In this document: positions 38,739 to 63,388 of the stretch, piece after piece
Layout: the number at the start of each line of letters is the position of its first letter
Numbering within the stretch: position 1 is the stretch's first letter
Notes under the pieces: model-generated
The model's input: only the letters and a program-made list of their open reading frames with translations
Told to the model about the DNA's origin: nothing
The model's database searches: none
IMG/VR virus record: IMGVR_UViG_3300005527_000042
Span: 1-64,000 of that record
Length of the DNA stretch: 64,000 bases
DNA from: a virus
Strand: one strand, 5' to 3'
Translations under genes and position numbers: made by a program

Positions 38739-41700
38739 TGGCAAGGAGAAAAGTACCGAGTCAAGCGTCAAGCGGAGCGGAAACATTTAATGATTTCTTA
38801 GTTGGTAGACAGATAACTGATGGTTCATCTGCACTAACCAACACCGTATTTGCGCTTGATAAGTCTATCCCTGACAAAGATTCTAAAAATTTTACGAGTA
38901 ACCCATTCTCTCAATTTTTAACATTAGATACGTTAAAAGAGGTTGAGGGTATTCAAACAACATCAGCAACACCAAGAAAAAAGAGAACTGACGAAGTAAG
39001 GTTTAAGGGCAACAAAAAATATGCCGATAAATCTTTATTTGGTTCGTTAACAAGTAGAATTTTAGTTTCATTAACTAGAATTATAAACAAGTTTCCGGGT
39101 GGAATTTCAATCTTATCGGACAGTCCTATAGGTGTTTCTAATTACAGTGCTAGTGGAATAACATATAACGATAGCACCAATACCACAACTTTTTACATCG
39201 AAAGAAGTAAAATATTCAATCCTTTTGATTTAGTTTTTGTTGAGCCTAATTCAGTAGTTAAACCAGAAACTGAAAACGAATTAAGAAATTTTTATTCGTC
39301 TTATACAAAATATGTTGTTGTTACAAATAACACACCATATCCAATTTTAGAATACAGCGAACCGAATACAAACAATAGAATTTACTTAAAGGTATATGGA
39401 CAACCATTTACTGGTTCAACATATTCAGAAAATTTATTGATAAGACCAAACGATGGTTTAGTTGAAGAATTTTTCGAAGGGTTAGACGATTTAGAGGAAT
39501 CACTTTTAAATAGAGAAACAAATCCAATTTATACTTCATCATTTAAAGTACCGAGAGATGTTCAAGACAATTCAAAAACATCTTTGGTTGATGTTGTAAT
39601 AACTTGGCCAATATCTAATGATGGTTATAACATACAAATAACCGGTTTTGATTACGATTTATATGTTGGTAAATTAAAAGATATTGCTGATGAGATAGAT
39701 GTGTATAAATCTAATCTAATGGTTAGATTTTTAGCCGCACCACAGTTATTTGAATTTGACACCGAAGATAAAAGAGCTGAAAGTGTATTTCAATTATATG
39801 GTCAAAGCTTTGATAGTGTAAAGAAATACATAGACAACATAGCTTATATGAGAAACGTAAGTTATGATGGAATTAATAATTTACCTGATGTACTTTTAAA
39901 AAACTTAGCAGAAAATTTAGGTTTATCAACATTAAATTTATTCGATGAAAATAGTCTAAATGATGTTTTATATTCAAGATTACAATCAAATTATGACGGA
40001 GTATCAACCGGTACGAATTTAATTGAAGCTGAGTATGAGTTTTATCGAAGATTACTTATAAATCTTGCTCACATTTATAAATCAAAAGGAACAAAATCCT
40101 CTATTGATTTCTTTTTAAAATTTTTGGGGGCACCCGAGCCTTTGATTAGGATTGATGAATACATTTATAAAGTAACGTCAATTCCATCTAGTTTTAATTT
40201 ACAACAAGACATATACGATGCGATTCAAGGTAACAAAAGATATTCTTACGCCACCTTTGATAGTACAGGTTTCACATATTCTAAAGTTTACTACTCAGCG
40301 TCAACAACATTTGACAGAGAGGGTTACCCTGTAGACGAAAAAACTGGACTACCAAGAAGAGCATATAACGAAACTGAAAACATATTCTTTGGTAAAGGTT
40401 CAGGATGGTACGATATTACATTATCACACCGTACTCCACTCGTTTTAGACAGTAGTAACTCAATACTAACGGGTAACACCAAAACAATTAAAACAAAGAA
40501 TAAAAACTACACATACGGAGAAGAATACTTTGATTTATATAGAACATTACCAGGTTTAGATACCGGTTATGAATTGGTTTCCGCGGTCGATAATAAAGAC
40601 GGAAAACCAATTGAGGATGATTATTTATTAATTTTAAATAGAAAAAACATTGGAATTTATATCTCACCATCACGAGGTATAGATTATGATATCTTTAGAC
40701 AAAGTAGAGAATTATTAATAAGTTTTGGTACAAATACTTTATTACCCCAAACAGGTAAAACTTTTGCTGAATTTTTAGACACCTTTATTCATGGACTTGT
40801 AACAAATTCTAACAAAATTCGTTACAAAAAAAATTATATTCAATTAGAAGATGTCTATAGAGATTATATATCACAAACAACAGGTTTTACACCATATAAT
40901 CAAATAAATGTTATTGAATTTGTTAATAAATTATCACCTTATTGGCCACAATTAGTTGAACAATTAGTACCATCAACCACTCAATGGACCGGCGGTAATT
41001 TAATAGAAAATAACGTGTTTGGTAGACCAAAATATCAATATAGATATGATTGTCAACCATTAGAATTTATTGAGGAACTATACCCTGATTTTGAAAATGT
41101 AATTGAGGAAGATTTAGAAAATATTTTAGGTGAAGAAAATAATTTTAGAGGTTTAATAAACCTTACAGGTGTTACTTACTATCCTGTAATTGAAATTGAT
41201 GGAACAGTTTATGGTGGGGCCGACTACACGGGTCTAACATCCTCTATGTATGTGATTGTTAGTGGAACAAGTAACACTTCAAACAGTGCAAAATTATTTG
41301 ATGCACAACCATTTACAGGATGTACAAGTGGGGTCACCAGTGGTGATACGGTAAATCTTTCCTTAATATGTGATTATAAAGATTATCTTGAACCTGATGT
41401 TACTAAAATTAAAGAACTATGGTTATCGGCGTTATCTGTATTGATTGATGACGTAACTATTACAAGAAATAGTGCAGGGTATGAACCCTATTCTGCTTTC
41501 ACGGGAACCACAGGCCAAACATATTTTTCAGAAACAATACCATTAATAAAATACACAACATACACTGATGAAAATGGTGTTGAAAAAGTTAAGTTTTCAT
41601 CCGTAAAATTAGGTCCAAACGAATGTTCAGTGGTCGACTATTTTGATTATCGATTTGATGCCGATTACAAAATCACAAAAAATACAAATGGAATCAGTGT

Positions 41701-42982
41701 TAAAGTTTATACTGATAATACCGTTTATTGCGACTCAAACAGTGGATGTACATTAGTGAGTGATGTGTTTTTTGAAGTAATTGGATACAAAACAGGTATC
41801 CAACAAGGTTCAACATGGCCATTTAACATTTATGCTAATTGTGTAAGTGGAACAAATGAAAATGCGGATGTTTACATTCAAAAAGTTAGTGATTGTGTAT
41901 ATAAATTAACTGGTTTTTCAGAAAATGATGTAATAGATTTTAATATTGTAGATGCAGCAAATAAAGAAGTAAAATTCAAAATTGAAGGTCTACAACCCAA
42001 AATTGAACATGACCCATGTCCAACACCATCAGGAAAAAGTCACGTAGAATTATTTAGTATTGTTGGTTACCAAGGAACAATATCATCCCCAATTTCAGTT
42101 GTTTCAGGTGCAACATATTGTGACAATTACACAGGTTACACAATACAACCAAAAGTTGAATACAAATCAAACTTTAACTATGGTTTAAAATGTGACTCTA
42201 TAGTTTTAGTAGTTGATAGCGGATTAACCATTGACAACCAAACTACAGATGACAATATTGAAAGTTATATTAGTGGTGGTACGATAAGTGGTAAAAGTGT
42301 TTGTGATTTAAATGTTGGGGAATATGTTTTATCTGCATCTTACAAACAATGTACAGAATATAGTCACCAACAAATTGTGAATGGACCTGTATCAGGGTAT
42401 TCATTTACGTACAACTATCAAAAACTTGAAATTACAGACATTGAATGTTTAGCATCAATCAAGAAAAGTATCATTACAGGATTAACCCAAAATAATACTT
42501 ATGAAGTTTTTGAAGTTTTACCAACAACACAACTAAGAGTTTATACAAATAGAATCATTGAAAATTTTGGAACACCTACAAATAGTGTTTACTTTTTTGA
42601 CGATAGGTTCCCAGAGGAATTACAAAAAAAACCAACAGATTTTATTGAACCTTGTTGTGACCATCCGAAAGAATTATATAACCATGGGGATTATTTAATA
42701 AACAAATATGGTAAAACCATAGAAGTAATTGATGTCGACTTAAATTATTGCGATACAGGATTATACTTCAATCTAAATTTTGAATTAGACAATACACCAC
42801 TAACTGATGAATTTGTTGTTGTTTTCAATGGAAATAACAGCGACCAAATTCTGATGAAACACAAATACGATAAACATCCAAATATTGGATTCAACCTCGG
42901 TCAATATTATATCGATGCCAACCATTGTCCTACAGAACCAACTAATGAGGAATTAAGTAGTTCCATTTTTGATTGTCCATGA
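38738..42982 (+). CDS. Large baseplate protein with P2 gpI-like region
   Basis: A 1414-residue protein. Residues about 335-480 contain a helical region with FRRLL-type features: FYRRLLINLAHIYKSKGTKS followed by SIDFFLKFLGAPEPLIRIDE. This resembles tail protein I of P2-like baseplates, the wedge component that holds the fibre. A second conserved piece is SPYWPQLVEQLVPSTTQWTG and FGRPKYQYRYDCQPLEFIEE (about 730-790). The C-terminal ~550 residues are a Cys-containing, Thr/Ser-rich beta region suggesting fibre-like domains. It lies immediately before the fibre cassette, which fits a fibre-attachment role (inference). Confidence 0.65.
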   Translation: MARRKVPSQASSGAETFNDFLVGRQITDGSSALTNTVFALDKSIPDKDSKNFTSNPFSQFLTLDTLKEVEGIQTTSATPRKKRTDEVRFKGNKKYADKSLFGSLTSRILVSLTRIINKFPGGISILSDSPIGVSNYSASGITYNDSTNTTTFYIERSKIFNPFDLVFVEPNSVVKPETENELRNFYSSYTKYVVVTNNTPYPILEYSEPNTNNRIYLKVYGQPFTGSTYSENLLIRPNDGLVEEFFEGLDDLEESLLNRETNPIYTSSFKVPRDVQDNSKTSLVDVVITWPISNDGYNIQITGFDYDLYVGKLKDIADEIDVYKSNLMVRFLAAPQLFEFDTEDKRAESVFQLYGQSFDSVKKYIDNIAYMRNVSYDGINNLPDVLLKNLAENLGLSTLNLFDENSLNDVLYSRLQSNYDGVSTGTNLIEAEYEFYRRLLINLAHIYKSKGTKSSIDFFLKFLGAPEPLIRIDEYIYKVTSIPSSFNLQQDIYDAIQGNKRYSYATFDSTGFTYSKVYYSASTTFDREGYPVDEKTGLPRRAYNETENIFFGKGSGWYDITLSHRTPLVLDSSNSILTGNTKTIKTKNKNYTYGEEYFDLYRTLPGLDTGYELVSAVDNKDGKPIEDDYLLILNRKNIGIYISPSRGIDYDIFRQSRELLISFGTNTLLPQTGKTFAEFLDTFIHGLVTNSNKIRYKKNYIQLEDVYRDYISQTTGFTPYNQINVIEFVNKLSPYWPQLVEQLVPSTTQWTGGNLIENNVFGRPKYQYRYDCQPLEFIEELYPDFENVIEEDLENILGEENNFRGLINLTGVTYYPVIEIDGTVYGGADYTGLTSSMYVIVSGTSNTSNSAKLFDAQPFTGCTSGVTSGDTVNLSLICDYKDYLEPDVTKIKELWLSALSVLIDDVTITRNSAGYEPYSAFTGTTGQTYFSETIPLIKYTTYTDENGVEKVKFSSVKLGPNECSVVDYFDYRFDADYKITKNTNGISVKVYTDNTVYCDSNSGCTLVSDVFFEVIGYKTGIQQGSTWPFNIYANCVSGTNENADVYIQKVSDCVYKLTGFSENDVIDFNIVDAANKEVKFKIEGLQPKIEHDPCPTPSGKSHVELFSIVGYQGTISSPISVVSGATYCDNYTGYTIQPKVEYKSNFNYGLKCDSIVLVVDSGLTIDNQTTDDNIESYISGGTISGKSVCDLNVGEYVLSASYKQCTEYSHQQIVNGPVSGYSFTYNYQKLEITDIECLASIKKSIITGLTQNNTYEVFEVLPTTQLRVYTNRIIENFGTPTNSVYFFDDRFPEELQKKPTDFIEPCCDHPKELYNHGDYLINKYGKTIEVIDVDLNYCDTGLYFNLNFELDNTPLTDEFVVVFNGNNSDQILMKHKYDKHPNIGFNLGQYYIDANHCPTEPTNEELSSSIFDCP

Positions 42983-43072: not shown

Positions 43073-46000
43073 ATGGCATTAATAAAAATAAACACAGGTA
43101 ATTTTGATGGTGAAATTGGTGTTATCACATTTTATCCTTGTACTGGCGGTACCTTGAATTTAGGTACTGTCGTGATGCCATATTATTACGACACAAACTA
43201 CTACTTAGGTACTTACTCAGTTTATTTTCCGTCACTTGATAAAACTTGTGTGGCTGAGATTCCTTGCCCTACACCTTCACCTACACCTTCACCAACACTT
43301 ACACCATCATTAACACCAACACCAACAACCTTTACTTCAAATACCCCAACCCCAACAGTTACCAAAACCCCTACTGTTACACCTACGGTTACAAAAACAC
43401 CTACTGTTACCCCAACCAATACTATCACTCCAACAAATACTCCTACGAATACCGTAACTCCGACTAATACTCCAACAAACGAGCCTACAGTTACCCCAAC
43501 TGAAACTCCTACAGTTACTCCAACTAACACAGTAACTCCAACCAATACCCCAACAAATACCCCAACGGTTACCCCAACTGAAACTCCTACAGTTACCCCA
43601 ACTAACACAGTAACTCCAACCGAATCACCAGCCAACACACCTACTGTAACTCCTACGAATACAGTTACACCAACCGAGACACCAACTGTTACTCCGACCG
43701 AAACTCCAACTGTAACCCCAACAAATACGGTAACCCCAACCAATACACCAACTGAAACACCTACCAACACCCCAACAAATACAGTTACCCCTACCGAAAC
43801 TCCAACTGTAACTCCAACAAATACGGTAACCCCTACCGAAACACCTACCAATACACCAACTCATACAGTAACCCCTACCGAAACACCAACCAATACCCCA
43901 ACTAATACACCGACTGAAACACCCACTAACACCCCAACAAATACTGTTACCCCAACTAATACACCAACCGAAACACCAACCGAAACACCAACCAATACCC
44001 CAACCAACACCGTAACTCCAACTGTTACCCCAACTGTTACCCCAACTGTAACTCCAACCAATACTGTTACCCCAACTAATACACCAACCGAAACACCAAC
44101 CGAAACACCAACCAATACTCCAACCAACACCGTAACCCTAACCGTTACCCCTACCGAAACACCAACCAACACCCCAACTAATACTCCGACTAACACAGTA
44201 ACACCAACACTGAGTCCAACCGTTACCCCTACCGAAACACCTACCAATACCCCAACCAACACCATAACACCAACTAACACTCCGACTAATACCTCAACTG
44301 TAACTCCAACCAATACTGTAACTCCAACCAATACACCCACTGTAACACAAACTGAAACACCTACCCTAACACCAACAAATACTGCAACCGTTACACCAAC
44401 TCAAACCCCAACCAATACTCCTACCAATACTGTTACACCAACGGTTACCCCAACTAACACTCCAACTGTAACTCCAACAAATACGGTAGCTCCAACTAAT
44501 ACACCTACAAATACACCAACCGAAACACCAACAAATACCCCCACCAACACACCAACAAATACTCCCACAGAAACACCAACACTTACACCAACCAACACCG
44601 TAACCCCTACCAATACAGTCACACCAACCAATACTGTTACAGTGACTCCAACAGAAACTGTGACACCAACTAATACACCTACAAACACCCCAACTAATAC
44701 ACCAACAAATACGGTTACACCTACGAATACTCCAACCAACACAGTAACTCCAACAAATACTCCAACTAACACTCCAACATTAAGTCCTACCAATACCGTA
44801 ACTCCTACCAACACCCCAACAAACACACCGACGAATACAGTAACTCCAACTCAGACACCTACAAATACTCCTACAAATACCGTTACACCAACCAATACCC
44901 CAACCAATACCCCAACCAACACCGTAACTCCAACAAACACTCCTACCAACACTCCTACAAACACTCCCACAAATACCGTAACTCCAACCAACACCGTAAC
45001 TCCGACTAATACACCTACAAACACACCAACGAATACTGTGACTCCTACATTGAGTCCTACGGTAACACCAACTAACACCGTAACACCAACCAATACTCCA
45101 ACCAATACACCTACCAATACTGTGACTCCTACATTGAGTCCTACGGTAACACCAACTAACACCGTAACACCAACCAATACTCCAACTAACACGCCGACCA
45201 ACACTCCTACTAACACTGTAACACCAACATTGAGTCCAACAGTGACTCCAACCAATACAGTTACCCCCACAAACACCCCGACAAATACTGTAACTCCAAC
45301 CAATACTGTAACTCCAACAAATACACCAAGTGTAACTGTGACGGTTTCACCAACACCAGCACCTTCTTGTGACATTGATTATACAATGTTACCCTCACCA
45401 ACTCCAACGAGCACCCCAACACCCACCAATACTCCAACGGTAACACCAACCAACACTGTAACACCATCCGTTACATTAACCAATACTCCCACAAACACAC
45501 CAACCAATACAGTAACTCCTACTAACACCCCAACTAATACACCAACAAAAACTGTTACACCAACTTTAACTCCAACAAATACTCCAACTAATACTGTAAC
45601 ACCAACCAATACACCAACAAACACTCCTACCAATACAGTTACTCCTACATTGAGTCCAACAGTTACTCCTACCAATACTGTTACCCCAACCAATACTCCT
45701 ACCAATACCCCAACCAATACAGTTACACCTACATTGACTCCAACAGCGACCCCAACCAACACCGTAACCCCTACAAATACCCCAACATTAAGCCCCACCA
45801 ATACTCCAACCAACACCGTAACCCCTACAAATACTGTAACACCAACGAATACCCCAACCAACACTCCGACAAACACCCCAACAAACACTGTAACACCAAC
45901 CAACACTCCAACAAACACTGTAACACCGACCAATACTCCAACAAATACCCCTACTAATACTGCTACTCCTACAAATACACCAACTAATACTCCTACCAAT

Positions 46001-49000
46001 ACGGTAACCCCTACAAATACACCAACTAACACTCCTACCAATACGGTATCCCCAACACTGACACCTACTAACACCCCTACGAACACCGTAACACCAACAA
46101 ACACACCAACTAACACACCAACTAATACTGTAACACCAACTAACACTCCTACCAACACCCCAACCAACACAGTTACTCCTACCAATACGCCAACTAATAC
46201 TCCTACCAATACGGTAACGCCAACATTGAGTCCAACAGTGACTCCAACCAATACCGTTACACCAACTCAAACCCCTACAAATACCCCAACTAACACCGTA
46301 ACACCAACCAATACACCTACGAATACCCCCACTAATACTCCAACAAATACCGTAACCCCAACAAACACGCCTACGAATACACCAACAGTAACCCCTACCA
46401 ATACCGTAACCCCAACAAATACACCGACGGTAACTCCGACCAATACAGTCACACCAACTAATACACCAACCAACACTCCTACCAATACGGCTACCAATAC
46501 AGTTACTCCTACCAATACACCCACAAATACACCAACAAATACGGTTACACCAACTAACACTCCTACTAATACTCCAACAAATACCGTAACACCGACACTG
46601 ACACCTACAAATACCCCGACAAACACTCCAACCAATACAGTTACTCCAACCAATACTGTAACTCCTACCAACACCCCTACCAACACCCCAACAAATACTC
46701 CAACAAATACAGTCACCCCAACTAATACTCCAACCAATACTGTCACCCCTACCAATACTCCTACAAACACCCCCACCAATACTGTCACCCCTACCAATAC
46801 TCCTACCAATACTCCTACAAATACAGTAACTCCAACTAACACCCCAACAAATACTCCAACAAATACAGTCACCCCAACCAATACTCCTACCAATACGCCC
46901 ACCAATACTGTCACCCCTACCAATACTCCTACCAATACTTCTACAAATACAGTAACTCCAACTAATACTCCTACCAATACGCCTACTAATACTGTAACTC
47001 CAACCAACACCCCAACTGTAACTCCTACCAATACTGTTACACCAACAAACACTCCTACTAACACACCAACCAATACTGTTACACCAACAAACACTCCTAC
47101 TAACACACCAACCAATACGGTAACTCCTACCAACACCCCAACTAACACACCAACCAATACGGTAACTCCTACCAACACCCCAACTAACACCCCAACAAAT
47201 ACTGTTACACCAACAAATACTCCCACCAATACCCCAACAAACACGGTGACTCCAACAAACACTCCTACTAACACCCCAACAAATACAGTAACACCAACAT
47301 TGAGTCCTACAGTAACTCCTACGAACACAGTAACTCCTACAAATACTCCCACAAACACTCCGACCAACACCGTTACACCAACAAATACCCCAACCAATAC
47401 CCCGACAAATACAGTAACCCCAACTAACACACCTACCAACACTCCAACTAATACAGTAACTCCCACATTAAGTCCAACTGTGACTCCTACTAATACTGTG
47501 ACTCCTACAAACACTCCTACCAACACACCAACAAATACAGTTACACCTACATTGAGTCCAACAGTGACTCCAACCAGCACCGTAACCCCAACTAATACGC
47601 CAACATTAAGTCCTACCAATACTCCAACCAACACTGTTACTCCTACAAATACCGTTACACCAACCAATACACCTACCAATACCCCAACAAACACCGTAAC
47701 CCCAACACTAACCCCAACTAACACTCCAACCAATACTCCTACAAATACGGTATCTCCAACCAACACCGTAACCCCAACAAATACACCAACTAACACTCCA
47801 ACCAATACTCCCACCAACACTGTTACTCCAACCAACACCCCGACCAACACTCCGACTAATACAGTAACTCCTACCAATACCCCAACAAATACCCCAACAA
47901 ATACAGTTACACCTACATTGAGTCCAACGGTGACTCCTACTAATACTGTAACTCCTACCAACACTCCGACCAACACACCAACCAATACTGTTACACCTAC
48001 ATTGAGTCCAACGGTGACTCCTACTAATACTGTTACACCCACTAACACGCCAACTAACACTCCTACTAACACTGTAACACCAACTCAGACTCCCACGAAC
48101 ACGCCTACAAATACAGTAACACCTACTAACACACCTACTAATACACCAACAAATACGGTAACACCAACCAACACCCCTACGAACACGCCGACTAACACCC
48201 CAACCAATACAGTCACACCAACTAATACCGTAACTCCAACAAATACGCCAACCAATACTCCTACCAATACGCCAACCAATACCGTAACACCAACTCAGAC
48301 ACCGACAAATACCCCAACAAAAACTGTTACACCAACATTGAGTCCGACTGTGACACCAACAAATACTGTTACTCCAACCAATACCCCCACCAATACTCCA
48401 ACTAACACAGTAACCCCAACCAATACTCCAACTGTAACACCTACGAATACTGTTACACCTACAAATACACCGACGAATACACCAACCAATACGGTAACTC
48501 CAACCAACACCCCAACCAATACCCCAACTAGTACTGTTACACCAACATTAAGCCCGACACTAACACCAACCAATACAGTAACTCCAACATTGAGTCCGAC
48601 TGTAACTCCAACAAGAACGGTTACACCTACTTTAACACCAACCAATACACCGACAAATACGGTAACCCCTACAAATACTCCCACCAACACCCCAACAAAC
48701 ACTCCAACCAATACAGTCACCCCAACAAACACCGTAACACCAACCAACACCCCCACAAACACTCCAACCAATACTCCAACAAACACCGTAACACCAACCA
48801 ACACACCAACCAAGACTGTAACTCCAACCAATACCCCAACCAATACTCCAACTAATACAGTAACCCCAACTAATACACCAACCAATACTCCAACGAACAC
48901 CGTAACTCCAACCAACACCCCAACCAACACTGTAACTCCAACAAATACACCTACAGTTACCCCGACTAACACAGTAACACCTACACTGAGTCCGACTGTA

Positions 49001-52000
49001 ACCCCTACGAATACAGTTACACCAACTCAGACACCTACAAATACTCCAACTAACACCGTAACTCCTACCAACACACCAACTAACACACCAACTAACACTG
49101 TTACACCCACAAATACACCAACCAATACAGTTACTCCTACCAATACACCTACTAACACTCCAACTAACACAGTAACCCCTACCAATACCCCTACGAACAC
49201 TCCTACTAATACAGTAACTCCTACAAACACCGTAACACCAACCAACACACCAACCAATACTCCAACCAACACTGTCACCCCTACATTGAGTCCTACGGTA
49301 ACTCCTACGAACACAGTTACCCCTACTAACACACCGACTAAGACCGTGACTCCCACATTGAGTCCGACTGTGACTCCTACAAATACTGTTACACCAACTC
49401 AAACCCCTACGAATACACCAACTAATACAGTTACACCAACTAATACACCTACAAACACCCCAACAAATACAGTTACACCTACAAATACCCCAACTAACAC
49501 TCCAACCAATACAGTAACCCCTACACTGAGTCCAACCGTAACACCAACTAATACTGTCACACCCACGAATACACCAACCAATACCCCTACGAATACTGTA
49601 ACCCCTACCAACACCCCTACTAATACTCCTACAAATACGGTTACACCAACTAACACTCCAACAAGAACGGTTACACCTACTTTAACACCAACCAATACAC
49701 CGACAAATACGGTAACCCCTACAAATACTCCCACCAATACCCCAACAAACACGGTGACTCCTACATTAACACCAACTGTAACTCCTACAAATACCGTAAC
49801 ACCAACCAATACTCCTACAAATACTCCTACTAACACAGTAACACCTACCAATACCCCTACAAACACACCAACAAACACTGTAACTCCAACTAACACCCCT
49901 ACTAATACTCCGACGAATACGGTAACTCCAACCAATACCCCAACAAACACACCTACCAACACCGTAACACCTACAAATACTCCTACTAAAACTGTGACTC
50001 CCACATTGAGTCCAACAGTTACACCTACCAACACCGTAACACCTACAAATACTCCCACAAATACCCCTACTAACACAGTAACACCAACAAATACACCAAC
50101 CAACACTCCAACTAATACCGTTACCCCAACTAACACACCTACAAATACACCAACAAATACTGTGACTCCTACATTGAGTCCAACAGTTACACCTACCAAC
50201 ACCGTAACACCTACAAATACCCCTACCAACACCCCAACAAATACAGTAACACCTACATTGAGTCCGACTGTGACTCCAACTAACACCGTTACGCCAACTA
50301 ACACACCTACCAACACTCCAACTAACACCGTAACCCCTACCAGCACCCCCACAAGAACCGTTACACCTACATTAACTCCAACCAATACCCCTACTAATAC
50401 CGTAACCCCAACAAATACCCCAACCAATACCCCTACTAATACCGTAACCCCAACAAATACCCCAACAAACACTCCAACTAATACCGTAACCCCAACAAAT
50501 ACCCCAACAAACACTCCAACTAATACCGTAACCCCTACCAACACCCCCACAAGAACCGTTACACCTACATTAACTCCAACCAACACACCAACTAATACTG
50601 TAACCCCAACCAACACTCCTACAAACACTCCAACGAATACAGTTACACCAACCAATACACCAACTAACACCCCAACCAACACTGTAACTCCAACATTGAG
50701 CCCTACAGTGACTCCCACTAATACAGTTACACCAACTAACACACCAACCAATACCCCAACCAACACCGTAACTCCAACAAACACCCCTACTAAAACTGTA
50801 ACTCCCACATTGAGCCCTACGGTAACCCCAACAAACACTGTTACTCCAACCAACACCCCAACTAATACTCCAACTAATACTGTTACTCCAACCAACACCC
50901 CAACCAACACCCCAACTAATACTGTTACACCGACCAACACACCAACGAATACTATAACTCCTACTAATACTCCTACCAAAACTGTTACACCAACTCTAAC
51001 CCCAACGAATACACCGACCAATACTCCTACAAACACAGTAACCCCAACCAATACCGTAACACCAACTAACACTCCAACCAACACTGTAACTCCAACTAAT
51101 ACACCAACCAACACCCCAACTAATACTCCGACAAACACTGTTACGCCAACCAATACACCAACAAAAACTGTCACACCAACTTTAACCCCAACCAACACCG
51201 TAACACCAACCAATACCCCGACTAATACACCTACAAATACTGTTACTCCAACTAATACACCTACAAACACTCCAACCAACACCGTAACCCCAACCAATAC
51301 ACCAACTAATACGGTGACTCCCACATTGAGTCCTACGGTAACTCCTACAAATACTGTAACCCCTACTAATACTCCTACCAAAACTGTTACACCAACTCTA
51401 ACCCCAACGAATACTCCTACCAATACTGTAACCCCTACCAATACTCCTACCAATACTGTAACCCCTACCAATACTCCTACCAATACTCCAACAAATACTG
51501 TTACCCCAACTCAGACACCTACTAACACTCCAACGAATACAGTCACACCAACCAACACACCAACTAATACTGTAACTCCTACATTGAGTCCTACGGTAAC
51601 TCCGACCAATACGGTAACCCCAACAAACACACCAACTAACACACCAACTAATACTGTAACGCCAACTAATACACCAACAAAAACTGTTACACCAACTTTA
51701 ACTCCAACCAATACCCCAACTAATACTGTAACACCTACCAATACACCAACAAACACTGTTACGCCAACTTTAACTCCAACCAATACCCCGACCAATACCC
51801 CAACAAATACCGTTACTCCAACCAACACAGTTACCCCGACCAATACCCCAACTAAGACAGTCACCCCAACTCAGACTCCCACCAATACTCCAACCAATAC
51901 CCCCACAAACACTGTAACTCCAACAAACACTGTTACGCCAACAAATACTCCAACTAATACGGTAACACCGACTAACACTGTAACGCCGACCAATACCGTA

Positions 52001-55000
52001 ACCCCCACTAACACTGTAACTCCAACGAATACAGTTACACCGACCAATACTCCAACAAGAACTGTTACGCCTACCTTAACCCCTACAAATACTCCAACAA
52101 ATACGGTAACTCCGACCAACACACCAACTAACACACCAACTAACACAGTTACCCCGACTAACACCCCAACCAATACGGTAACCCCTACTAACACACCTAC
52201 TAATACACCAACCAAGACTGTTACTCCTACATTAACTCCTACCGTTACTCCAACGAATACAGTTACACCGACCAATACCCCGACTAATACTAATACCCCT
52301 ACTAATACACCTACAAACACTCCTACTAACACAGTAACCCCAACCAATACACCAACAAAAACTGTCACACCAACTTTAACCCCAACAAATACACCGACCA
52401 ACACACCAACTAATACAGTGACTCCAACCAATACTGTTACCCCAACAAACACTCCAACCAAGACTGTTACTCCTACATTAACACCAACCAACACTCCGAC
52501 CAATACGGTAACCCCTACAAATACCCCAACTAACACCCCAACAAACACTGTTACGCCAACTAATACACCAACCAAGACTGTTACTCCTACATTAACTCCA
52601 ACCAATACCCCTACTAATACCGTAACCCCAACAAATACCCCAACAAACACTCCAACCAATACTGTAACACCAACGAATACTGTTACCCCAACATTGAGTC
52701 CTACTAATACCCCAACTAATACTGTAACACCCACCAACACACCCACCAACACACCAACAAATACTGTTACACCAACCAATACACCAACAAAAACCGTAAC
52801 ACCTACATTAACACCAACAAACACTCCTACAAACACCCCAACAAATACCGTTACTCCAACCAACACCGTAACCCCAACTAACACACCAACTAATACGGTG
52901 ACTCCCACCAATACCGTTACACCTACAAACACTGTTACACCTACTAATACTGTTACACCTACTAATACTGTAACACCAACTAATACACCAACCAAGACTG
53001 TAACACCTACATTAACTCCAACCAATACTCCAACAAACACCGTAACACCAACTCAGACACCGACTAATACTCCTACAAATACCGTAACTCCTACCAATAC
53101 ACCAACAAAAACTGTCACACCAACTTTAACTCCAACAAATACCCCAACCAATACTGTTACACCAACTCAAACCCCTACGAATACACCAACTAATACAGTT
53201 ACACCAACTAACACAGTCACCCCGACCAACACACCTACCAATACCCCAACCAATACTGTTACACCTACCTTAACTCCTACAAATACTCCTACAAATACAG
53301 TAACCCCAACCAATACACCAACAAAAACCGTAACACCTACATTAACACCAACAAACACTCCTACAAACACTCCCACGAATTCCGTTACTCCTACTAATAC
53401 TGTTACCCCCACTAACACCCCAACTAACACAGTAACGCCGACTAATACTGTTACTCCAACCAATACCGTAACTCCTACAAATACGGTAACCCCAACCAAT
53501 ACTGTAACGCCAACTAATACCCCAACCAAGACAGTTACACCAACTCAGACACCTACTAATACACCAACCAACACTGTAACACCAACTAACACACCTACCA
53601 ACACTCCAACTAACACCGTAACTCCTACTAATACACCAACAAAAACTGTTACACCAACTCTAACACCAACAAATACCCCTACGAACACTGTAACTCCAAC
53701 CAATACACCAACAAAAACTGTTACACCAACTTTAACTCCGACCAACACGGTAACCCCAACCAATACTCCTACTAATACTCCTACTAATACAGTAACCCCC
53801 ACCAATACTCCGACCAATACGGTGACTCCCACATTGAGTCCTACAGTTACCCCTACGAACACCGTTACACCAACAAATACCCCAACCAAGACTGTAACTC
53901 CTACATTAACTCCTACAAATACCCCTACTAATACTGTAACCCCTACCAATACTCCAACTAATACACCTACTAAAACTGTCACCCCTACAGTTACTCCTAC
54001 TAATACAGTTACCCCAACCAACACTCCCACAAACACTCCTACAAACACTGTAACCCCTACATTGAGTCCTACAGTTACCCCTACGAACACCGTTACACCA
54101 ACAAATACCCCAACCAATACTCCGACAAATACAGTTACACCGACCAATACGCCCACAAATACTCCTACTAATACTGTTACACCCACTAACACCCCAACAA
54201 ATACTCCAACAAATACAGTTACACCGACCAATACACCCACAAATACACCAACAAATACAGTTACACCGACCAACACACCAACAAAAACTGTAACACCAAC
54301 TTTAACTCCAACCAATACACCCACAAATACACCAACAAATACGGTTACACCAACAAATACAGTAACCCCAACTAATACACCGACTAAGACAGTCACCCCA
54401 ACCAATACCCCAACAAATACTCCAACCAACACACCAACTAACACGGTTACCCCAACCAATACTGTTACACCAACAAACACACCCACTAATACACCAACCA
54501 AGACTGTAACTCCTACATTGAGTCCTACAGTTACTCCTACTAATACAGTAACACCCACCAACACACCAACTAACACGGTTACCCCAACCAATACACCAAC
54601 CAAGACTGTTACACCTACATTAACACCTACTAATACTCCGACCAATACTGTAACCCCTACATTGAGTCCTACAGTTACCCCTACGAACACCGTTACACCA
54701 ACAAATACTCCTACAAACACCCCAACCAAGACTGTTACACCTACATTAACACCTACTAATACTGTTACACCTACATTAACACCAACCAATACTCCAACGA
54801 ACACTCCTACCAATACTCCTACAAACACGGTAACACCAACAAACACTGTTACACCAACAAATACTCCTACAAACACTCCGACCAAGACTGTTACACCTAC
54901 ATTAACACCTACTAATACTCCTACGAATACTGTTACCCCAACAAATACTCCAACAAGAACTGTTACTCCTACATTAACACCGACCAATACTCCTACGAAT

Positions 55001-58000
55001 ACTGTTACCCCAACAAATACTCCAACAAATACACCTACTAATACAGTTACACCAACTAACACACCTACTAATACAGTTACACCAACCAACACCCCAACCA
55101 AGACTGTTACACCTACCTTAACTCCTACAAACACCCCAACCAATACTCCAACAAACACTGTTACGCCTACTAATACCCCGACTAATACGGTAACTCCTAC
55201 AAATACCCCAACCAATACCCCAACAAATACCGTTACTCCAACTAATACACCAACAAAAACTGTTACACCAACTCTAACCCCAACAAATACTCCAACCAAC
55301 ACACCAACTAATACGGTTACCCCAACAAATACTGTTACCCCCACAAATACTCCAACCAAGACTGTCACCCCTACCAATACTCCTACAAACACCCCAACCA
55401 ATACGGTAACTCCTACAAATACCCCAACCAATACTCCAACAAACACTGTTACGCCTACTAATACTCCGACTAATACAGTTACACCAACTCAGACACCTAC
55501 TAATACACCAACAAAGACAGTTACACCAACTTTAACACCGACCAATACAGTTACACCTACATTGAGTCCTACAAATACTCCTACCAATACAGTAACACCA
55601 ACAAATACACCAACTAACACCCCAACAAATACCGTTACACCAACGAATACACCAACTAACACTCCGACTAACACTGTAACCCCAACTAATACCGTAACCC
55701 CAACAAGAACACCAGCAGCTACTGTTAGTCCAACAAATACTCCAACAAATACTCCTACGAATACTGTTACACCAACCAATACACCTACCAATACACCTAC
55801 TAATACTGTTACACCAACCAACACACCAACTAAAACGGTTACACCTACGTTCACACCAACCAATACAGTAACTCCGACTAACACACCCACAAACACCCCA
55901 ACCAATACCGTTACACCAACCAATACACCTACTAATACTCCAACCAATACTGTTACACCAACAAATACTCCTACTAATACTGTTACACCAACAAGAACAC
56001 CAGCAGCTACTGTTAGTCCAACAAATACTCCAACAAATACTCCTACGAATACTGTTACACCAACCAATACACCTACCAATACACCTACTAATACTGTTAC
56101 ACCTACTAACACTCCAACCAAAACTGTAACACCAACCAATACTCCTACTAATACTGTTACACCCACAAACACCCCAACAAACACTCCAACAAATACAGTC
56201 ACACCAACTAATACACCTACAAATACACCTACTAACACAGTCACACCCACCAACACACCGACCAATACAGTGACTCCAACAAGAACTCCGGCCGCCACTG
56301 TTAGTCCTACCCTTACACCCACAAACACCCCAACCAATACCGTTACACCAACCAATACACCAACAAGAACCGTCACACCAACTTTTACACCTACTAACAC
56401 TCCAACGAATACAGTCACACCAACAAATACTCCAACCAATACGCCGACTAATACTGTTACACCAACCAATACCCCAACCAATACTGTTACTCCAACAAGA
56501 ACTCCGGCAGCCACTGTTAGTCCTACCCTTACACCAACCAATACCCCAACCAATACTCCAACAAATACAGTAACACCAACCAACACTGTCACACCGACCA
56601 ATACTCCTACTAATACACCAACAAAAACTGTTACACCAACTTTTACACCAACCAATACTCCAACCAATACTGTAACACCAACCAATACTCCTACAAACAC
56701 CCCAACAAACACCGTTACTCCTACCAATACTCCTACCAATACTGTAACTCCTACGAGAACACCAGCGGCTACTGTTAGTCCAACATTAACACCGACTAAC
56801 ACACCAACAAACACACCTACTAATACTGTTACTCCAACAAATACAGTTACACCGACCAACACCCCTACTAACACCCCAACCAACACTGTTACTCCAACCA
56901 ACACCCCAACTAATACTCCAACAAATACGGTAACTCCAACCAATACCCCTACTAATACCGTAACCCCGACAAGAACACCAGCTGCCACTGTTAGTCCAAC
57001 CTTAACTCCAACTAATACTCCAACCAACACTCCAACTAATACAGTCACCCCTACGAATACAGTTACACCTACCAATACACCAACAAGAACAGTTACACCA
57101 ACTTTAACTCCAACTAATACACCAACCAACACTGTAACACCAACTAACACCCCAACTAATACTCCAACAAATACGGTAACTCCAACAAATACCCCAACAA
57201 ATACTGTTACACCAACAAGAACACCAGCGGCTACTGTTAGTCCAACATTAACACCAACAAATACACCTACCAATACCCCAACGAACACAGTAACCCCCAC
57301 AAATACTGTTACCCCAACCAATACCCCAACAAGAACTCCAGCAGCCACTGTTAGTCCTACGGTAACTCCAACAAATACCCCAACAAATACTGTTACACCA
57401 ACAAGAACACCGGCTGCCACAGTTAGTCCAACCGTAACACCAACTAACACTCCAACAAATACTGTTACACCAACATTGACACCAACCAAAACAGTAACCC
57501 CAACGGCTAGTCCTCAGTATGTTGCTGCTAGATTTGAATCATGTTGTCCTGGTGACACCAATGTTTATTATGGTCAAGTACCATTAGGTACATTGTTAGG
57601 TACGGTATTTTATTTACAAGACATTCAGTTATGTGCAACGTATGTGCAACAGGTAGGACCTGGAGGTACGATTTACACTACTGTTCAGACAAGTTGTGCA
57701 CAATGTTTAGGAGAAACTCTAAATTTTTGTCCATCACCAACCCCGACACCAACACCAACCAGAACTGTTACACCTACGAATACGGTAACCCCTACCAATA
57801 CACCAACAAGAACAGTTACACCAACTCTCACACCAACCAATACCCCAACAAATACTGTTACTCCAACAAGAACTCCAGCCGCCACTGTTAGCCCTACGGT
57901 AACCCCTACCAATACACCAACAAGAACAGTTACACCAACTTTAACCCCGACTAACACCCCAACCAATAGTGTTACTCCTACGAGAACACCATCCGTAACC

Positions 58001-59491
58001 CCTACCAATACACCAACAAAAACAGTTACACCAACTTTAACTCCTACATTAACACCAACAAGCACAGTAACACCATCACCATCCTTACAGGTTGGTTATG
58101 TTTATTTATTACCATGTTGTGATGGTGGTATTTTAGGTAATACTATTTCTTATTTAAGTATAACAACTAATTTGACCTATGTTCAAAGCGGTATTTCACA
58201 AGGTCAAACTATTGTTATAAATGGATGTTGTTATTTTGTTGAAGGTTATAGTCAAACCTACTCACCACCAAACTTTAGTGGGGTTGACGGGTATTATCCA
58301 CCATCATCATTTAGTGTTGATACATGTGAAACATGTATTGGAGCTAACCCATGCGCCACTTGGATTTTCGATTTACAAAGATGTGGATGTTGTGGTACAA
58401 CAGGACAATATACAATTCAATTTGGTTGTCAAAATGGATTTAACCCAAATCTTTTAGTAAACCGTTATATATCAATTAATGGTTGTTGTTATTTTGTTAC
58501 AAACTCAGTCGGACCAGGAGTACCTGGTTCCGCAATCACTGCGTATGGTACATACAATACATGTACTGAATGTGAAACTTATCACCCTTGTCCTTCACCA
58601 ACCCCAACAGTTACACCAACAGTTACACCAACTTTAACCCCAACAAAAACACCGACAAATACACCAACAAGGACAGTTACTCCAACTTTAACACCAACCA
58701 ATACTCCTACAAATACACCAACCAAGACTGTAACTCCAACCTTTACCCCTACAAATACACCAACCAAGACTGTAACTCCAACCTTTACCCCTACAAATAC
58801 TCCAACCAAGACTGTAACTCCAACCTTTACCCCTACAAATACTCCAACAAGGACAGTTACTCCAACTTTAACACCAACCAATACTCCTACAAATACACCA
58901 ACCAAGACTGTAACTCCAACAAACACTCCAACAAACACTCCAACACCATCTCCGGTTTCAAATCCGTCATCAACCCCAACCCCAACTCCAACTCCGACCC
59001 CAACCCCAACTCCACCATGTGTTTGTGAGTCATATATTATTACAGGATTAGGACCTGGTAATATAGTTAACTATACCACTTGTTGCGGTGGAGGAACACC
59101 CACAGAAATACTTGACCCAAATGTGTACCCAGCAAGTGGTACAATTGAGATATGTTCATGTAGTATTCCAAGTGTATTAGGTCCTTATGGTGGGGAGATA
59201 ACGTATGATGGTGCTTGTGGTGATTGTTTGTGTACAGACTTTTTTGTTGATATTAATGATTTAACAGCCTCAGATGATAATCAAGTATACTTTGCATACC
59301 AATGTTGTGATGGTACATTCACAACACAAGGTTATAACGCCCCTGGTAATTATAGCGTTTGTCTTATGAGAGTGACAAATGTGTTTATATTGTTTAGAGG
59401 AAACTTCGTACCACCAATATATACTTCGCAATATACATACGGTACTGGTTGTGGTGATTATTGTAACACATTTTGTGGAGAAGCATGTTAA
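43073..59491 (+). CDS. Giant Thr-Pro-Asn repeat fibre/adhesin-like protein (5472 aa)
   Basis: One uninterrupted frame of 16.4 kb. Residues 1-65 are a small domain ([20 protein letters not shown]) ending in a Cys-Pro cap. Residues about 63-4813 are a low-complexity linker in which nearly every second residue is Thr, alternating with Pro, Asn, Val and occasionally Leu, Ser, Lys, Gln, Glu or Arg. A short non-repeat island ([14 protein letters not shown]) lies near residue 765. The C-terminus has Cys-rich beta modules at about 4814-4885, 5004-5176 and 5314-5472, separated by shorter Thr-Pro linkers. There is no signal peptide. Position after the baseplate genes and domain style shared with the next genes point to an exposed virion fibre or adhesin. 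Extended, the linker could exceed 1 micrometre, an inference from about 0.3 nm per residue. All codons for Thr and Pro are used, which argues for a truly translated sequence. Function is otherwise unknown. Confidence 0.85.
43481..44656 (+). repeat. Glu-bearing subzone of the giant linker
   Basis: About 21 Glu codons (mostly as TETP) fall in this interval, and I find none in the rest of the linker, so this is a distinct acidic repeat class at the N-terminal end. Confidence 0.75.
45032..45186 (+). repeat. Exact tandem duplication (71-bp identity, 84-bp offset)
   Basis: Bases 45032-45102 are identical to 45116-45186. The 84-bp offset equals two 42-bp units. The unit includes the TLSPTVTP variant, so it marks a recent DNA-level duplication. 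Confidence 0.85.
48605..48687 (+). repeat. 83-bp segment duplicated exactly at 49655-49737
   Basis: The two copies are identical over 83 bp and include the rarer [10 protein letters not shown] variant. The offset is 1,050 bp, exactly 25 times 42 bp, which indicates a segmental duplication in phase with the repeat unit. Confidence 0.8.
50437..50520 (+). repeat. Two exact 42-bp tandem units
   Basis: 50437-50478 and 50479-50520 are identical, and the start of a third copy follows at 50521. The unit reads as 14 residues of the Thr-Asn-Thr-Val-Thr-Pro type. Confidence 0.85.
55690..57910 (+). repeat. [11 protein letters not shown] repeat subfamily near the C-terminal end
   Basis: Ten copies of a segment reading [11 protein letters not shown] occur here (nine before the first Cys-rich module, one after it), mostly 70-295 bp apart. 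The Ala-Ala breaks the strict Thr alternation, and the motif is absent from the first 12 kb of the linker. Confidence 0.8.
57514..57735 (+). other. Cys-rich module A of the giant protein
   Basis: About 72 residues of non-repeat sequence begin at [15 protein letters not shown] and end in TSCAQC ... FCPSPTPTP. The double Cys near the start and the C-x-x-C before the next Thr-Pro linker recur in the other modules; disulphide or metal cross-linking is inferred. Confidence 0.7.
58084..58600 (+). other. Cys-rich modules B and C of the giant protein
   Basis: Two consecutive related modules. B has [18 protein letters not shown] and VDTCETC. C has [19 protein letters not shown] and YNTCTEC, ending [10 protein letters not shown]. 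The shared INGCCYFV core and terminal T-C-x-x-C show they are paralogous domains. Confidence 0.75.
58664..58920 (+). repeat. Nested tandem repeat in the second Thr-Pro linker
   Basis: Three consecutive 42-bp units (58741-58782, 58783-58824, 58825-58866) encode [14 protein letters not shown]-type 14-mers, and a 77-bp flank is exactly duplicated (58664-58740 and 58844-58920). This shows that 42 bp is the expansion step here too. Confidence 0.85.
59017..59491 (+). other. Cys-rich modules D and E, C-terminus of the giant protein
   Basis: Module D runs from [12 protein letters not shown] to GACGDCLC; module E from [13 protein letters not shown] to the C-terminal [13 protein letters not shown]. 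Both contain a CC pair (TTCCGGG, YQCCDGT) and dense cysteines, fitting a cross-linked tip domain. Confidence 0.7.
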
Positions 59492-59535: not shown

Positions 59536-62100
59536 ATGCCAGCACAAATAATAACATTTCAAAATTGTTTAGACCCAGCGTCATACTATGATTTTGTCGT
59601 CGATGACAGTTTAGTATTATCGGGTGACACGATTTTTGCTGATTACCAATGTTGGTCTTCAACAGGAAATGTCGGAGGTGGACCGTCAGGTACGGTTATT
59701 TTTAGTGGTTATACAACCTGTGAACAATGTAACGACGATTTTAATGGGTGGCAATTTGAACATTGCCAAATACCAGGGGCATTTGTTTACTTTGGTTTAA
59801 AAAATTCAGAAGTTAATCAGTATTTCCAAAGTACAGGTGCAACAATTTCTTATGATGGTACATGTTACAACTATACAGGAGTTTATGAACAAGGCACTGG
59901 TAGCACCACTTACAATTATACTGTTGCACAATTAATTTCTGAAAATGCTCTTTTTACAAATTGTATTGACTGTTTAACACCACCAAGTCCAACTCCTACC
60001 CCTACTCCAACACCCACACCAACTTTATGTTACTCAGGTATAACCGATTCACCAAATTGGTATTATACGGACTGTTGTGGTGTATATCATAGTGGTTCAT
60101 TTTCACCAACATATGTTTGTTACGACCCGAGTTACCCATATGCAGGGATATCTTTCAATGGTTTCTGTACTGTAGTTTGTCCGAGTGTGACCCCAACTCC
60201 AACACCCACATTAACACAAACTCCTTCCGAAACTCCTTCCGAAACCCCAACCCCAACAAATACTGTAACTCCAACAAAAACTCCAAGTCTAACTCCGACA
60301 CCTTCGGTTACACCAACAAATACACCCACAAATACACCGTCAAGTACGTTAGGTTCGACACCTTCGGTTACACCAACAAATACACCCACAAATACCCCTT
60401 CATTAACACCTTCGGTAACTGTTAGTGTAACACCCACAGTAACCCCATCACCTTCACTAGTACCTACAGGATGTACTCAATATACATTCTCATTACACCC
60501 AATTTATTTTTTAACGCAAGCCGGACCTTATAATATTTCGGGAACAACAACAGGAGGAACTATAGTATTAATTGCAACTGGTGTGACAACATCTCAATTA
60601 TTATCTGGGTATACCGCACTTGTGTGTTATTCAATAACAACATTTACAGTTCAAAGTACTGGTACGTGTACTAATTCTGTGAATTTTACATTACCTGTAC
60701 CTATTGTATCTCCAACCCCGACCCCAACAAAAACCCCAACACCAAGTCCATCCGGTAATCCAGTTGCGACCCCAAGTGTAACACCTACTAATACCGTAAC
60801 CCCGACCCTGACCCCAACACCATCAGGTGGTTGTAGTGATTCAGTTAGAAATACTCTTGCCGCAACGAATTCATATTCTGCCGTTGGTAGACAAGGTATG
60901 GTTTATTCATCATCAAATAACAAAGCATACGTTCTAAACGCATCAAGTGTTGTACAATCTTTTGTCCCAAATTCAACAAGTTTAACAAATGAATTTACAT
61001 GGTCAGGAAGTAGTTTATTATTAGGATATAACTCAACTAACAACAAATTATACAGTTGGGAATCATCATTTCCTGTTAAAATGTTAATAAGAAATTTAAA
61101 CACAAACACAACATCGTCAATATCAATTTCGGGAATAACATCAGGTTTAGGAAAAATTGAATATAATTCTGTTTTAAATAAAATTTATGCATTTAGTCAA
61201 ACAGGTGGAAATTTTTCAGTTTCACAAATTAGTGTCATAGATGGTTCAACAGATACTTTTACAAACCAAATTACAGGTATAACTTTATCAAACCCTGAAG
61301 CGACTGTTTACAATCCTAATAATAATAAATTATATTTCGCTCAGAGTGGTAGAATATATTCTTGTTCTGGTAATACTATTTCGTTAGATGGTACATCACT
61401 ACCAATCACCTCAGCAAGTTTAATTGCTTTGGATGTGACGAACAATATTATTTATTTAGTTAGTGCGTCTACGGTATACAAAATAGATGTTGCAACAAAC
61501 ACCACACTTACTTTAAATTCAATATCGGGAGCAACTTGGATTTTTGGCTCAACAAGGTCTATGATATATAATCCTGATAACGGTAAATTATATATTAGCA
61601 GATATTCAACATTGTCAGATGGATTCTTAGGTGTTCTAGACCCGACAACAGGTATATTTAGTGAAATTATTGGTGACGGTATTTCTAAACCTTTGTATGT
61701 ACCGACAAATACAATATATGGTATAAATGATAATGCTCTATACGAAATTTGTGGTTCATCCTTGGTAGCGGTTTCCCCAACCCCAACCCCTACTTTAACT
61801 AAAACCCCAACCCCAACTAAAACTCCATCAGTTACACCAACACCTAGTCCGACATATCAAGAATGGAATATGGTTGGATGTACAAATTACTGTAGTGGGG
61901 TTGTGTTGTGTTCAGGTTCGTATAGTGTAACATTATACACATTACCAAATGTGGTCAATATTTATGATTCAGGTGTTACCATCTACACGAATAATAACTT
62001 AACAACAACATTTGATGGGTTTTTTCAAATTGGAAGTGTAATTTATGAAGTAGTTTCTGGTTCGGTAACTACTCAGTATACAATTGGTGATGGATGTTAA
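59536..62100 (+). CDS. Modular fibre/adhesin-like protein with beta-propeller
   Basis: An 854-residue protein with the same architecture as the giant gene. The N-terminus has Cys-containing modules (FQNCLDPASYYDFVVDD; GYTTCEQC; GTCYNYTG), then a short PSPTPTPTP linker, a small CCG module (about 168-215) and a Thr-Pro/Ser linker of ~90 residues. A module near 310-390 and a further linker follow. Residues about 435-745 are a YVTN/NHL-like beta-propeller, with repeated strands such as YNPNNNKLYFA and YNPDNGKLYIS. A final Thr-Pro linker leads to a Cys module (WNMVGCTNYCSGVVLCSG). Propellers in this setting usually bind ligands or glycans. Likely a virion surface protein; a TATTTATA box precedes it. 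Confidence 0.7.
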   Translation: MPAQIITFQNCLDPASYYDFVVDDSLVLSGDTIFADYQCWSSTGNVGGGPSGTVIFSGYTTCEQCNDDFNGWQFEHCQIPGAFVYFGLKNSEVNQYFQSTGATISYDGTCYNYTGVYEQGTGSTTYNYTVAQLISENALFTNCIDCLTPPSPTPTPTPTPTPTLCYSGITDSPNWYYTDCCGVYHSGSFSPTYVCYDPSYPYAGISFNGFCTVVCPSVTPTPTPTLTQTPSETPSETPTPTNTVTPTKTPSLTPTPSVTPTNTPTNTPSSTLGSTPSVTPTNTPTNTPSLTPSVTVSVTPTVTPSPSLVPTGCTQYTFSLHPIYFLTQAGPYNISGTTTGGTIVLIATGVTTSQLLSGYTALVCYSITTFTVQSTGTCTNSVNFTLPVPIVSPTPTPTKTPTPSPSGNPVATPSVTPTNTVTPTLTPTPSGGCSDSVRNTLAATNSYSAVGRQGMVYSSSNNKAYVLNASSVVQSFVPNSTSLTNEFTWSGSSLLLGYNSTNNKLYSWESSFPVKMLIRNLNTNTTSSISISGITSGLGKIEYNSVLNKIYAFSQTGGNFSVSQISVIDGSTDTFTNQITGITLSNPEATVYNPNNNKLYFAQSGRIYSCSGNTISLDGTSLPITSASLIALDVTNNIIYLVSASTVYKIDVATNTTLTLNSISGATWIFGSTRSMIYNPDNGKLYISRYSTLSDGFLGVLDPTTGIFSEIIGDGISKPLYVPTNTIYGINDNALYEICGSSLVAVSPTPTPTLTKTPTPTKTPSVTPTPSPTYQEWNMVGCTNYCSGVVLCSGSYSVTLYTLPNVVNIYDSGVTIYTNNNLTTTFDGFFQIGSVIYEVVSGSVTTQYTIGDGC

Positions 62101-63037: not shown

Positions 63038-63388
63038 ATGCCGTCATTAGTAACATACTCAGTAACAATATCAAATTTTTCAGGACAAACACCTTGTAAC
63101 GGGTACTATATCTACACAGGGTTAACACATAATATTGATGATGCAAATTATATCAATGGGGTTGAAGTTTTAATTCCAATATCAACGGGATATACGTTTA
63201 ATATAAGTTTATTGGATAACATACCACAAATTTTTGTATTTGTGGAACACTGTGACGGACACATAAACCCTGTACCATCATCGGTACCAAAATTGCAAGG
63301 TGGTTATCAATTAGCATTAGTTGATTTAAGATGTAGTGATTGTTACTACCCATGTGCATTTAATGTTAATGTTGTTCAAATAACGTAA
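63038..63388 (+). CDS. Small Cys-containing beta protein of the fibre cassette
   Basis: A 116-residue protein that appears to be a single beta domain without a Thr-Pro linker. It starts PSLVTYSVTISNFSGQTPCN and ends with a Cys-rich strand VDLRCSDCYYPCAFNVNVVQ. The RCSDCYYPC cluster resembles the Cys caps of the neighbouring modules, so it may be a stand-alone module that joins the fibre or its chaperone. Three bases separate it from the next gene. Confidence 0.6.
   Translation: MPSLVTYSVTISNFSGQTPCNGYYIYTGLTHNIDDANYINGVEVLIPISTGYTFNISLLDNIPQIFVFVEHCDGHINPVPSSVPKLQGGYQLALVDLRCSDCYYPCAFNVNVVQIT

Follow-up and report, generated by a model that had tools for sequence, protein, structure and literature searches.

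What does a phage gain from a single 16.4-kb gene, most of which encodes threonine at every second position? The question is raised by a gene in the 64,000-nucleotide stretch analysed here (the window; positions 1 to 64,000 of IMG/VR virus record IMGVR_UViG_3300005527_000042), which a preliminary description, made from the letters of the window, had taken to encode an exceptionally long tether between small Cys-rich domains. Our analysis favours, at a probability of roughly 60%, a giant adhesin or tether of a jumbo myovirus with Bacteroidota as its most likely hosts.

We propose that the conserved N-terminal domain would fix the protein to a conserved virion partner, most likely one in or near the baseplate or tail tip. 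The linker of 4,750 residues that follows, with Thr at every second position and Pro solely at the others, would form an extended, unfolded and nearly uncharged chain, and the small Cys-rich β-modules at its far end may bind the surface of the host or of nearby particles. Such a chain would widen the capture radius, and several weak tips, on the giant protein and on the products of three neighbouring genes with shorter linkers, may act jointly before the tail engages. The location on the virion, read from sequence, the disorder of the linker in solution, and the binding role of the modules and its target are what we infer.

Coding frame and linker

The gene is one ATG-to-stop frame on the + strand, with zero N and zero internal stops, over positions at which the remaining two + frames contain 336 and 272 stops. 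It is 16,419 bp long and predicts a protein of 564 kDa. It is letter-identical in five of the nine other IMG/VR contigs that span it; these nine are separate records and may not be independent samples. In the main linker, Thr occupies 2300 of the 2375 positions of one parity and 2 of the 2375 of the other. The longest uninterrupted alternate-Thr run comprises 184 Thr, against a maximum of 17 in 300 composition-preserving shuffles. The single frame with near-alternate Thr that had been described is intact, and its regularity is stronger than was claimed. TPTN and TPTNTV units make up most of the linker in mixed order, and the spacing between prolines is even in 100% of cases, mostly 4 (622 spacings) or 6 (357). 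Lys and Arg account for only 57 of the 4750 residues, and tryptic sites are therefore few, as anticipated.

The pattern of variation within the linker is that of a coding sequence. When the linker was cut into 30-residue segments, 143 of 157 had a partner identical at 26 or more of the 30 residues, a choice that favours few amino-acid changes, and most nucleotide differences between matched segments fell at third codon positions (2481, against 119 at first and 102 at second positions). The giant gene is protein-coding and under coding selection, with third positions that vary freely. Long open frames on the − strand across the gene, which arise from sequence composition, were not accepted as genes, since it is the third positions of the + frame that vary.

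Synonymous sites also record the history of the repeat. Agreement between Thr codons at lags of 2–60 averages 30.3%, versus a random expectation of 30.1%, so most units carry no trace of recent duplication. Repeated exact 31-mers nevertheless cover 1818 positions, whereas 40 codon shuffles gave a mean of 71, which indicates that some linker segments do duplicate. Near-random Thr codons and an excess of 31-mers were also found together in five other linkers, from the related records G001, G003, G004, G020 and G021. Unit composition drifts along the linker (compared between 43268–44692 and 56093–57517), with all 21 Glu within the first tenth, Lys commonest in tenths 7–9, and Arg and Ala commonest in the last tenth. 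This drift matches what local duplication would give.

By arithmetic, 4750 residues have a contour length of 1.47–1.71 μm. As an unmodified coil, by a coil law from the literature, the linker would span ~75 nm end to end, similar to the tail length assumed in the preliminary description; a worm-like chain at an assumed mucin-like stiffness of 12 nm would span ~175 nm. The earlier figure of over 1 micrometre refers to the contour, and the coil value would hold unless glycosylation stiffens the chain.

Relatives and linker turnover

Relatives were sought in IMG/VR with the gene just upstream of the giant gene, which encodes 1414 amino acids (aa) and gave 105 matches; the best 80, at 74 distinct loci, were retained. 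An alignment of six N-terminal domains found 29 loci, 13 of which match fully and are this virus. Among the other 16 contigs with the domain, three carry intact orthologues, of 2737 aa (G004), 2940 aa (G001) and 4989 aa (G020). Twelve end inside the gene, including G021, open at the contig edge after at least 4673 aa, and L125, in which the frame stops at 255 aa shortly before the end of the contig. The linker is therefore a frequent assembly break point, a blind spot in which such proteins are under-recorded. The preliminary description had suggested a search for homologous end modules joined by variable linkers; these were found, and the retained end domains together with the coding signature bear out a genuine phage gene.

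What the orthologues do not share is the linker itself, which differs in its units and varies twofold in length. The units are TITPTTSVTP in G021, SVTPTSSVTPS in G001 and G003, and STSVTPTVTP in G004; G020 and this virus differ again. Thr or Ser nonetheless fills 98–99% of one parity in five of the six linkers examined. The exception is G003, in which parity is mixed (0.62 and 0.48), and this may be an effect of a 20-N gap or a real slip. The other parity in the G001, G004 and G021 linkers contains 10–14% Thr or Ser, mostly in Ser-containing units. In each of the five linkers tested (this virus, G001, G004, G020 and G021), 99.9% or more of the Pro spacings are even numbers, and the order in which they follow one another is less random than in shuffles; G003 was left out of this count because of its gap and mixed parity.

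The feature of the gene that we explain least well is a parity maintained despite total turnover of linker sequence. Its source may be duplications of even length or, alternatively, an extended or glycosylated structure that needs Thr or Ser at every second side chain. Either way, such constancy amid complete turnover is a natural experiment that may show which properties a low-complexity linker has to retain.

Alternating Thr is widespread at smaller scale. At least 80 IMG/VR loci (at least 120 stretches) carry at least 41 AC-starting codons in a row at alternate positions, and all 80 loci examined have an open frame with a Thr/Ser-alternating run, a few of them simple TA, TG or TV repeats. 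With the contigs of this virus (L165, L212, L221 and L229) excluded, the longest such run is 476 residues (L163), in a set that includes loci truncated at an edge and none of the other giants of the lineage; the run in this virus is at least 3,440 residues (L229). The kind is common and the size exceptional.

Locus comparison with a close relative

Divergence around the giant gene was traced in one pair of genomes, this virus and G001. Upstream, their DNA aligns in an 11.9-kb piece (32290–44112) at 87%, the final 0.8 kb of which lies in poorly matching linker; downstream, alignment resumes at 66312 and extends for 11.7 kb at 89.5%. Between these two blocks, the pieces listed are scattered, with 62–86% identity, and a further 110 fall in the linker. 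Windowed identity falls from 0.87 to 0.45 at ~43.3 kb, just past the N-terminal domain, and recovers 23 kb further on. The same step is seen in the proteins. The 1414-aa and 305-aa proteins that border the locus are each 97% identical to their G001 counterparts, and the four past the variable locus are 96, 93, 98 and 98% identical; within the giant protein, the N-terminal domain is 87% identical and the C-terminal domain 35% (53/151).

Matches to sheath, tube, hub and baseplate wedge lie upstream, and the giant protein is thus encoded after the baseplate and tail block. Tail fibres and receptor-binding adhesins generally have a conserved N-terminal attachment part and a variable distal part. 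As judged from sequence, the anatomy of this locus is that of a tail fibre or adhesin, with a putative fixed anchor, a giant linker and a variable tip, and it makes the tether or adhesin role suggested earlier the best reading. Attachment to eukaryotic or mucus surfaces, also raised in the preliminary description, found nothing pointing to it in our analysis; divergence of the tip between close relatives that share a conserved anchor would fit host recognition better.

Terminal domains

The small N-terminal domain and the Cys-rich C-terminal modules described around the linker are both present. The N-terminal domain spans about 64–68 aa, and 35 of 68 alignment columns are invariant across 15 sequences (two of them identical). 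An AlphaFold model built with the 15 sequences predicts six strands in an all-β arrangement (mean predicted local distance difference test (pLDDT) 64.6).

Five Cys-rich units, separated by shorter linkers, lie within the last 658 residues. The modules at residues 5005–5094 and 5095–5174, taken together, have 48–59% identity (best segment) in three other contigs. The C-terminal domain was sought in 17 other records, many of which end before its position, and has relatives in four of them (G001, G003, G004 and G020; 33–39% identity). AlphaFold modelled the C-terminal 465 residues (9 sequences) at a mean pLDDT of 57.8, with folded β-modules reaching 93 and the linker at 31–56. Fibronectin type III (FN3)-like and lectin rows for this model, with Z up to 4.2 (VIA), were unconvincing and were not used. 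That the N-terminal and C-terminal domains are the same module was rejected by profile comparison (probability 0.2 of 100). Neither terminal part matched a Pfam family up to E 0.1, the sole PHROG match of the C-terminal part falls over linker, query A4 had no PDB sequence match at E ≤ 1, the 1414-aa marker matched none of 50,697 phage records, and neither the C-terminal modules nor a 716-aa gene had a hit in phage records. The end modules offer a direct handle for proteomics.

Tips of this kind recur elsewhere. A second long gene in G020 (L138; G020:21617–27235) encodes 1872 aa with Pro/Thr (PT) linkers and a C-terminal domain related to that of the giant protein, which suggests that tips are common to neighbouring adhesins.

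Table 1. Features of the giant gene and its surroundings (window coordinates).
Feature	Position	Strand	Evidence or remark
Baseplate wedge genes (gp25-like, gp6-like) opening the upstream block	27572..29858	+	PHROG matches
Conserved 1414-aa gene just upstream, marker for relatives	38738..42982	+	97% identical in G001
Complete giant gene, 5472 codons	43073..59491	+	Intact frame; identical in 5/9 other spanning IMG/VR contigs
N-terminal domain, residues 1–68, proposed virion anchor, predicted all-β	43073..43276	+	Alignment, model
Main linker, residues 65–4814, Thr every second position, units mainly TPTN/TPTNTV	43265..57514	+	Parity count; synonymous sites near random
116-bp repeat, copy 1; assembly break and deletion point	55700..55815	+	One deletion per altered contig nearby
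116-bp repeat, copy 2	55988..56103	+	Contigs L014 and L020 begin nearby
Cys-rich module, residues 4815–4887	57515..57733	+	Counterpart in G001 and G004
Second linker, residues 4888–5004	57734..58084	+	Sequence
Cys-rich module CC...GCC...C..C, residues 5005–5094, poorly modelled	58085..58354	+	pLDDT mostly 30–59
Cys-rich module of CC...GCC...C..C pattern, residues 5095–5174	58355..58594	+	pLDDT blocks 66–92
Third linker, residues 5175–5315	58595..59017	+	pLDDT blocks 31–56
C-terminal Cys-rich domain pair, residues 5316–5472, proposed binding tip	59018..59488	+	β-rich, pLDDT blocks 54–93
854-aa gene, PT linkers and Cys-rich modules, variable locus	59536..62100	+	56% over 551 aligned residues to 591-aa G001 gene
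282-aa gene with PT linker, variable locus	62164..63012	+	55% over 228 aligned residues to G001
116-aa gene without PT linker, variable locus	63038..63388	+	78% to G001
973-aa gene with PT linkers, start only (to 66313 in the record)	63392..64000	+	45% over 398 aligned residues to G001

Weighing the explanations

Several observations weigh against an adhesin or tether. Four of the nine spanning contigs have frame-breaking deletions, of 253, 268, 310 and 430 bp, and are otherwise unchanged, and G003 is frame-broken near the end of the gene, in a stretch with the 20-N gap. Between the gp6-like and giant genes lie six genes without a match in PHROG (E 0.001) or Pfam (E 0.1), so that talk of a baseplate region rests on genes ~13 kb upstream, the PHROG-matched wedge genes that we take to be gp25 and gp6. 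Farther upstream, a 1374-aa protein is 77% and a 277-aa protein 86% identical to G001, and the flanks are therefore not uniformly conserved. Even Pro spacing in all five linkers tested is more order than a mere flexible spacer requires. The N-terminal model is weak, and Foldseek returned no solved or viral fold for the C-terminal model at E ≤ 0.001, so the binding role is argued from anatomy alone.

The deletions are probably misassembly rather than real variants. The longest exact repeat in the gene is 116 bp, with copies at 55700 and 55988, and each of the four altered contigs has one deletion at 55680–55812, at or beside the first copy (placement approximate); in the contig missing 430 bp, a 240-bp piece at the repeat is in frame and two further pieces (54701 and 56418) break it. 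Four contigs of this virus stop inside the gene (~55790, ~55813, ~54963 and ~50962) and three begin inside the linker (L014 at ~56013, L020 at ~55990 and L024 at ~51242), a clustering that indicates that assembly breaks favour both copies. Although contigs thus stop, begin or lose DNA at this repeat, we regard it as highly improbable that the whole gene is an inflated or chimeric artefact, given five letter-identical records and the fact that no exact repeat exceeds 116 bp; assemblies, moreover, tend to shorten repeats and not to extend them with unique sequence. Neutral, selfish expansion, by which slippage and recombination would have grown the repeat to a length with no more function than a short linker, seems unlikely. 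It would account for the excess of exact 31-mers and for the twofold length variation among relatives, but near-random synonymous sites coexist with a frame and parity that persist through 4,750 codons, intact long frames built of other units occur in three further genomes, and 14 kb would presumably be expensive for a phage to carry.

A tentative and less likely alternative is a phage mucin, in which the linker would be densely O-glycosylated by the transferases of the phage into a stiff brush serving as a coat or shield of the virion, with the tips mattering less. The strict Thr/Ser parity and even Pro spacings would suit such a protein, and the phage carries a glycosyltransferase island that makes a mucin-like linker possible: 15 open reading frames (ORFs) on the − strand of its record (G000:88837–100946; L010, L011) include epimerases, two FkbM methyltransferases and several glycosyltransferases, with 8 of the 15 above Pfam cut-offs for one of these three functions (the epimerases being sugar-nucleotide epimerases). 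Of 20 records searched, 13 contain PF00535: the record of this phage, four more contigs of the virus and eight others. Four glycosyltransferase groups are reported as core in moraphages (PMC12619734). However, the island is ~29 kb away on the opposite strand and may act on DNA or the host surface; 7 of the 20 records, several of them short, lack PF00535, including G003 (87 kb), which has the giant gene; G007 has glycosyltransferases and no giant orthologue seen in the 5 kb downstream of its marker; and PF13712, in 5 of 15 records, occurs outside this virus only in G004. An association between glycosyltransferases and the giant gene was accordingly rejected as non-specific. Nor would a pure coat require the combination of a divergent tip and a conserved anchor. 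That transferases encoded by the phage O-glycosylate the linker is a conjecture, and we offer as speculative a bacteriophage mucin family across this jumbo lineage: under-recorded virion proteins of 2,700–5,500 residues, whose strictly alternating Thr/Ser linkers would be glycosylated by the island of the phage itself into stiff brushes that would keep divergent receptor-binding tips away from the tail by hundreds of nanometres. Cys-rich modules would also suit an oxidising compartment, and thus a non-virion protein that infected cells would secrete or display on their surface, such as a factor in aggregation or superinfection. This is quite unlikely: the protein starts with a conserved domain in which inspection by eye showed no obvious hydrophobic signal segment (no predictor was run), and the locus follows baseplate genes and behaves as a fibre locus. 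If the giant adhesin or tether that we favour is on the virion, it would change the picture of reach and adsorption for jumbo phages in dilute water.

Comparison with known systems

The locus resembles those of tail fibres and adhesins in its conserved N-terminal part, its variable distal part, its position after baseplate genes and its hypervariability between close relatives. It differs in that the middle of the giant protein is a 4,750-residue chain of alternating Thr, with no fibre domain recognised by Pfam or PHROG. The shorter PT-type linkers of uncultivated phages likewise have alternate Thr, often with P, N, Q, E or V between. In mucins, PTS domains are long Pro/Thr/Ser repeats between Cys-rich modules, an arrangement that the giant protein shares; unlike mucins, it is the protein of a bacterial virus, has a strict two-residue parity and is known here from its gene. 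Virions of mycobacteriophages are reportedly glycosylated (Freeman et al., as cited in PMC12619734). An alternating-Thr giant phage protein was not found in the open-licence papers searched, and, if this protein is on the virion, to our knowledge no longer phage tether has been described.

Moraphages are aquatic jumbo phages with sheath, tube, gp25 and gp6, predicted Bacteroidota hosts, and glutamine synthetase in nine genomes (PMC12619734). This phage likewise has a jumbo genome with T4-like sheath, tube, gp25 and gp6, and it has glutamine synthetase and glycosyltransferases, which may belong to the moraphage core groups. The main text of the moraphage paper does not contain the word threonine, and the sections consulted describe no alternating-Thr gene (PMC12619734). 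The amino-acid tandem repeats of Borgs are recently formed and perfect at the amino-acid level (PMC9879509). The likeness lies in disordered regions that are assembled from repeats, have much Pro and Thr and belong to a mobile element; in the giant linker, by contrast, units vary, Thr codons are near random (0.303 versus 0.301) in place of the recent near-identical nucleotide repeats of Borgs, and a minority of duplications are recent (PMC9879509). The Hoc capsid fibre of T4, a chain of Ig-like domains of ~18 nm on the capsid, is similarly a virion-borne appendage proposed to interact with the surroundings, a place on the virion that would hold for the giant protein by inference (PMC10385173). 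Gordonia phages have long tape measure genes of about 9.1 kb; the giant gene, at 16.4 kb, is longer and unlike a tape measure gene (PMC4919401).

The phage and minor observations

A record that carries the identical giant gene is 288,260 bp long. Family matches in the phage comprise sheath, tube, hub, baseplate wedge, a UvsX-like recombinase and a DnaB-like helicase. Among the matches listed, its ribonucleotide reductase is closest to those of Tenacibaculum and Cellulophaga phages, and its sheath has the best coverage with a Microcystis phage (31.6%) and, across 30% of the query, its top identity (40.5%) with phages of Flavobacterium. Glutamine synthetase (PF00120 and PF03951) is encoded at 103379–104503 of G000 (L011). 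On these gene matches, the phage resembles the jumbo moraphages and is most likely of freshwater type with a Bacteroidota host.

In G007 (L057), a 2292-residue open frame at 13313–17215 has three GT2 matches and probably represents a multi-glycosyltransferase fusion, as judged from its sequence. A search of the genome collection returned a 143-residue stretch 70% identical to the 1414-aa marker on L141, a contig from a Pacearchaeota-binned metagenome-assembled genome from Lac Pavin; the stretch is probably mis-binned phage DNA rather than archaeal.

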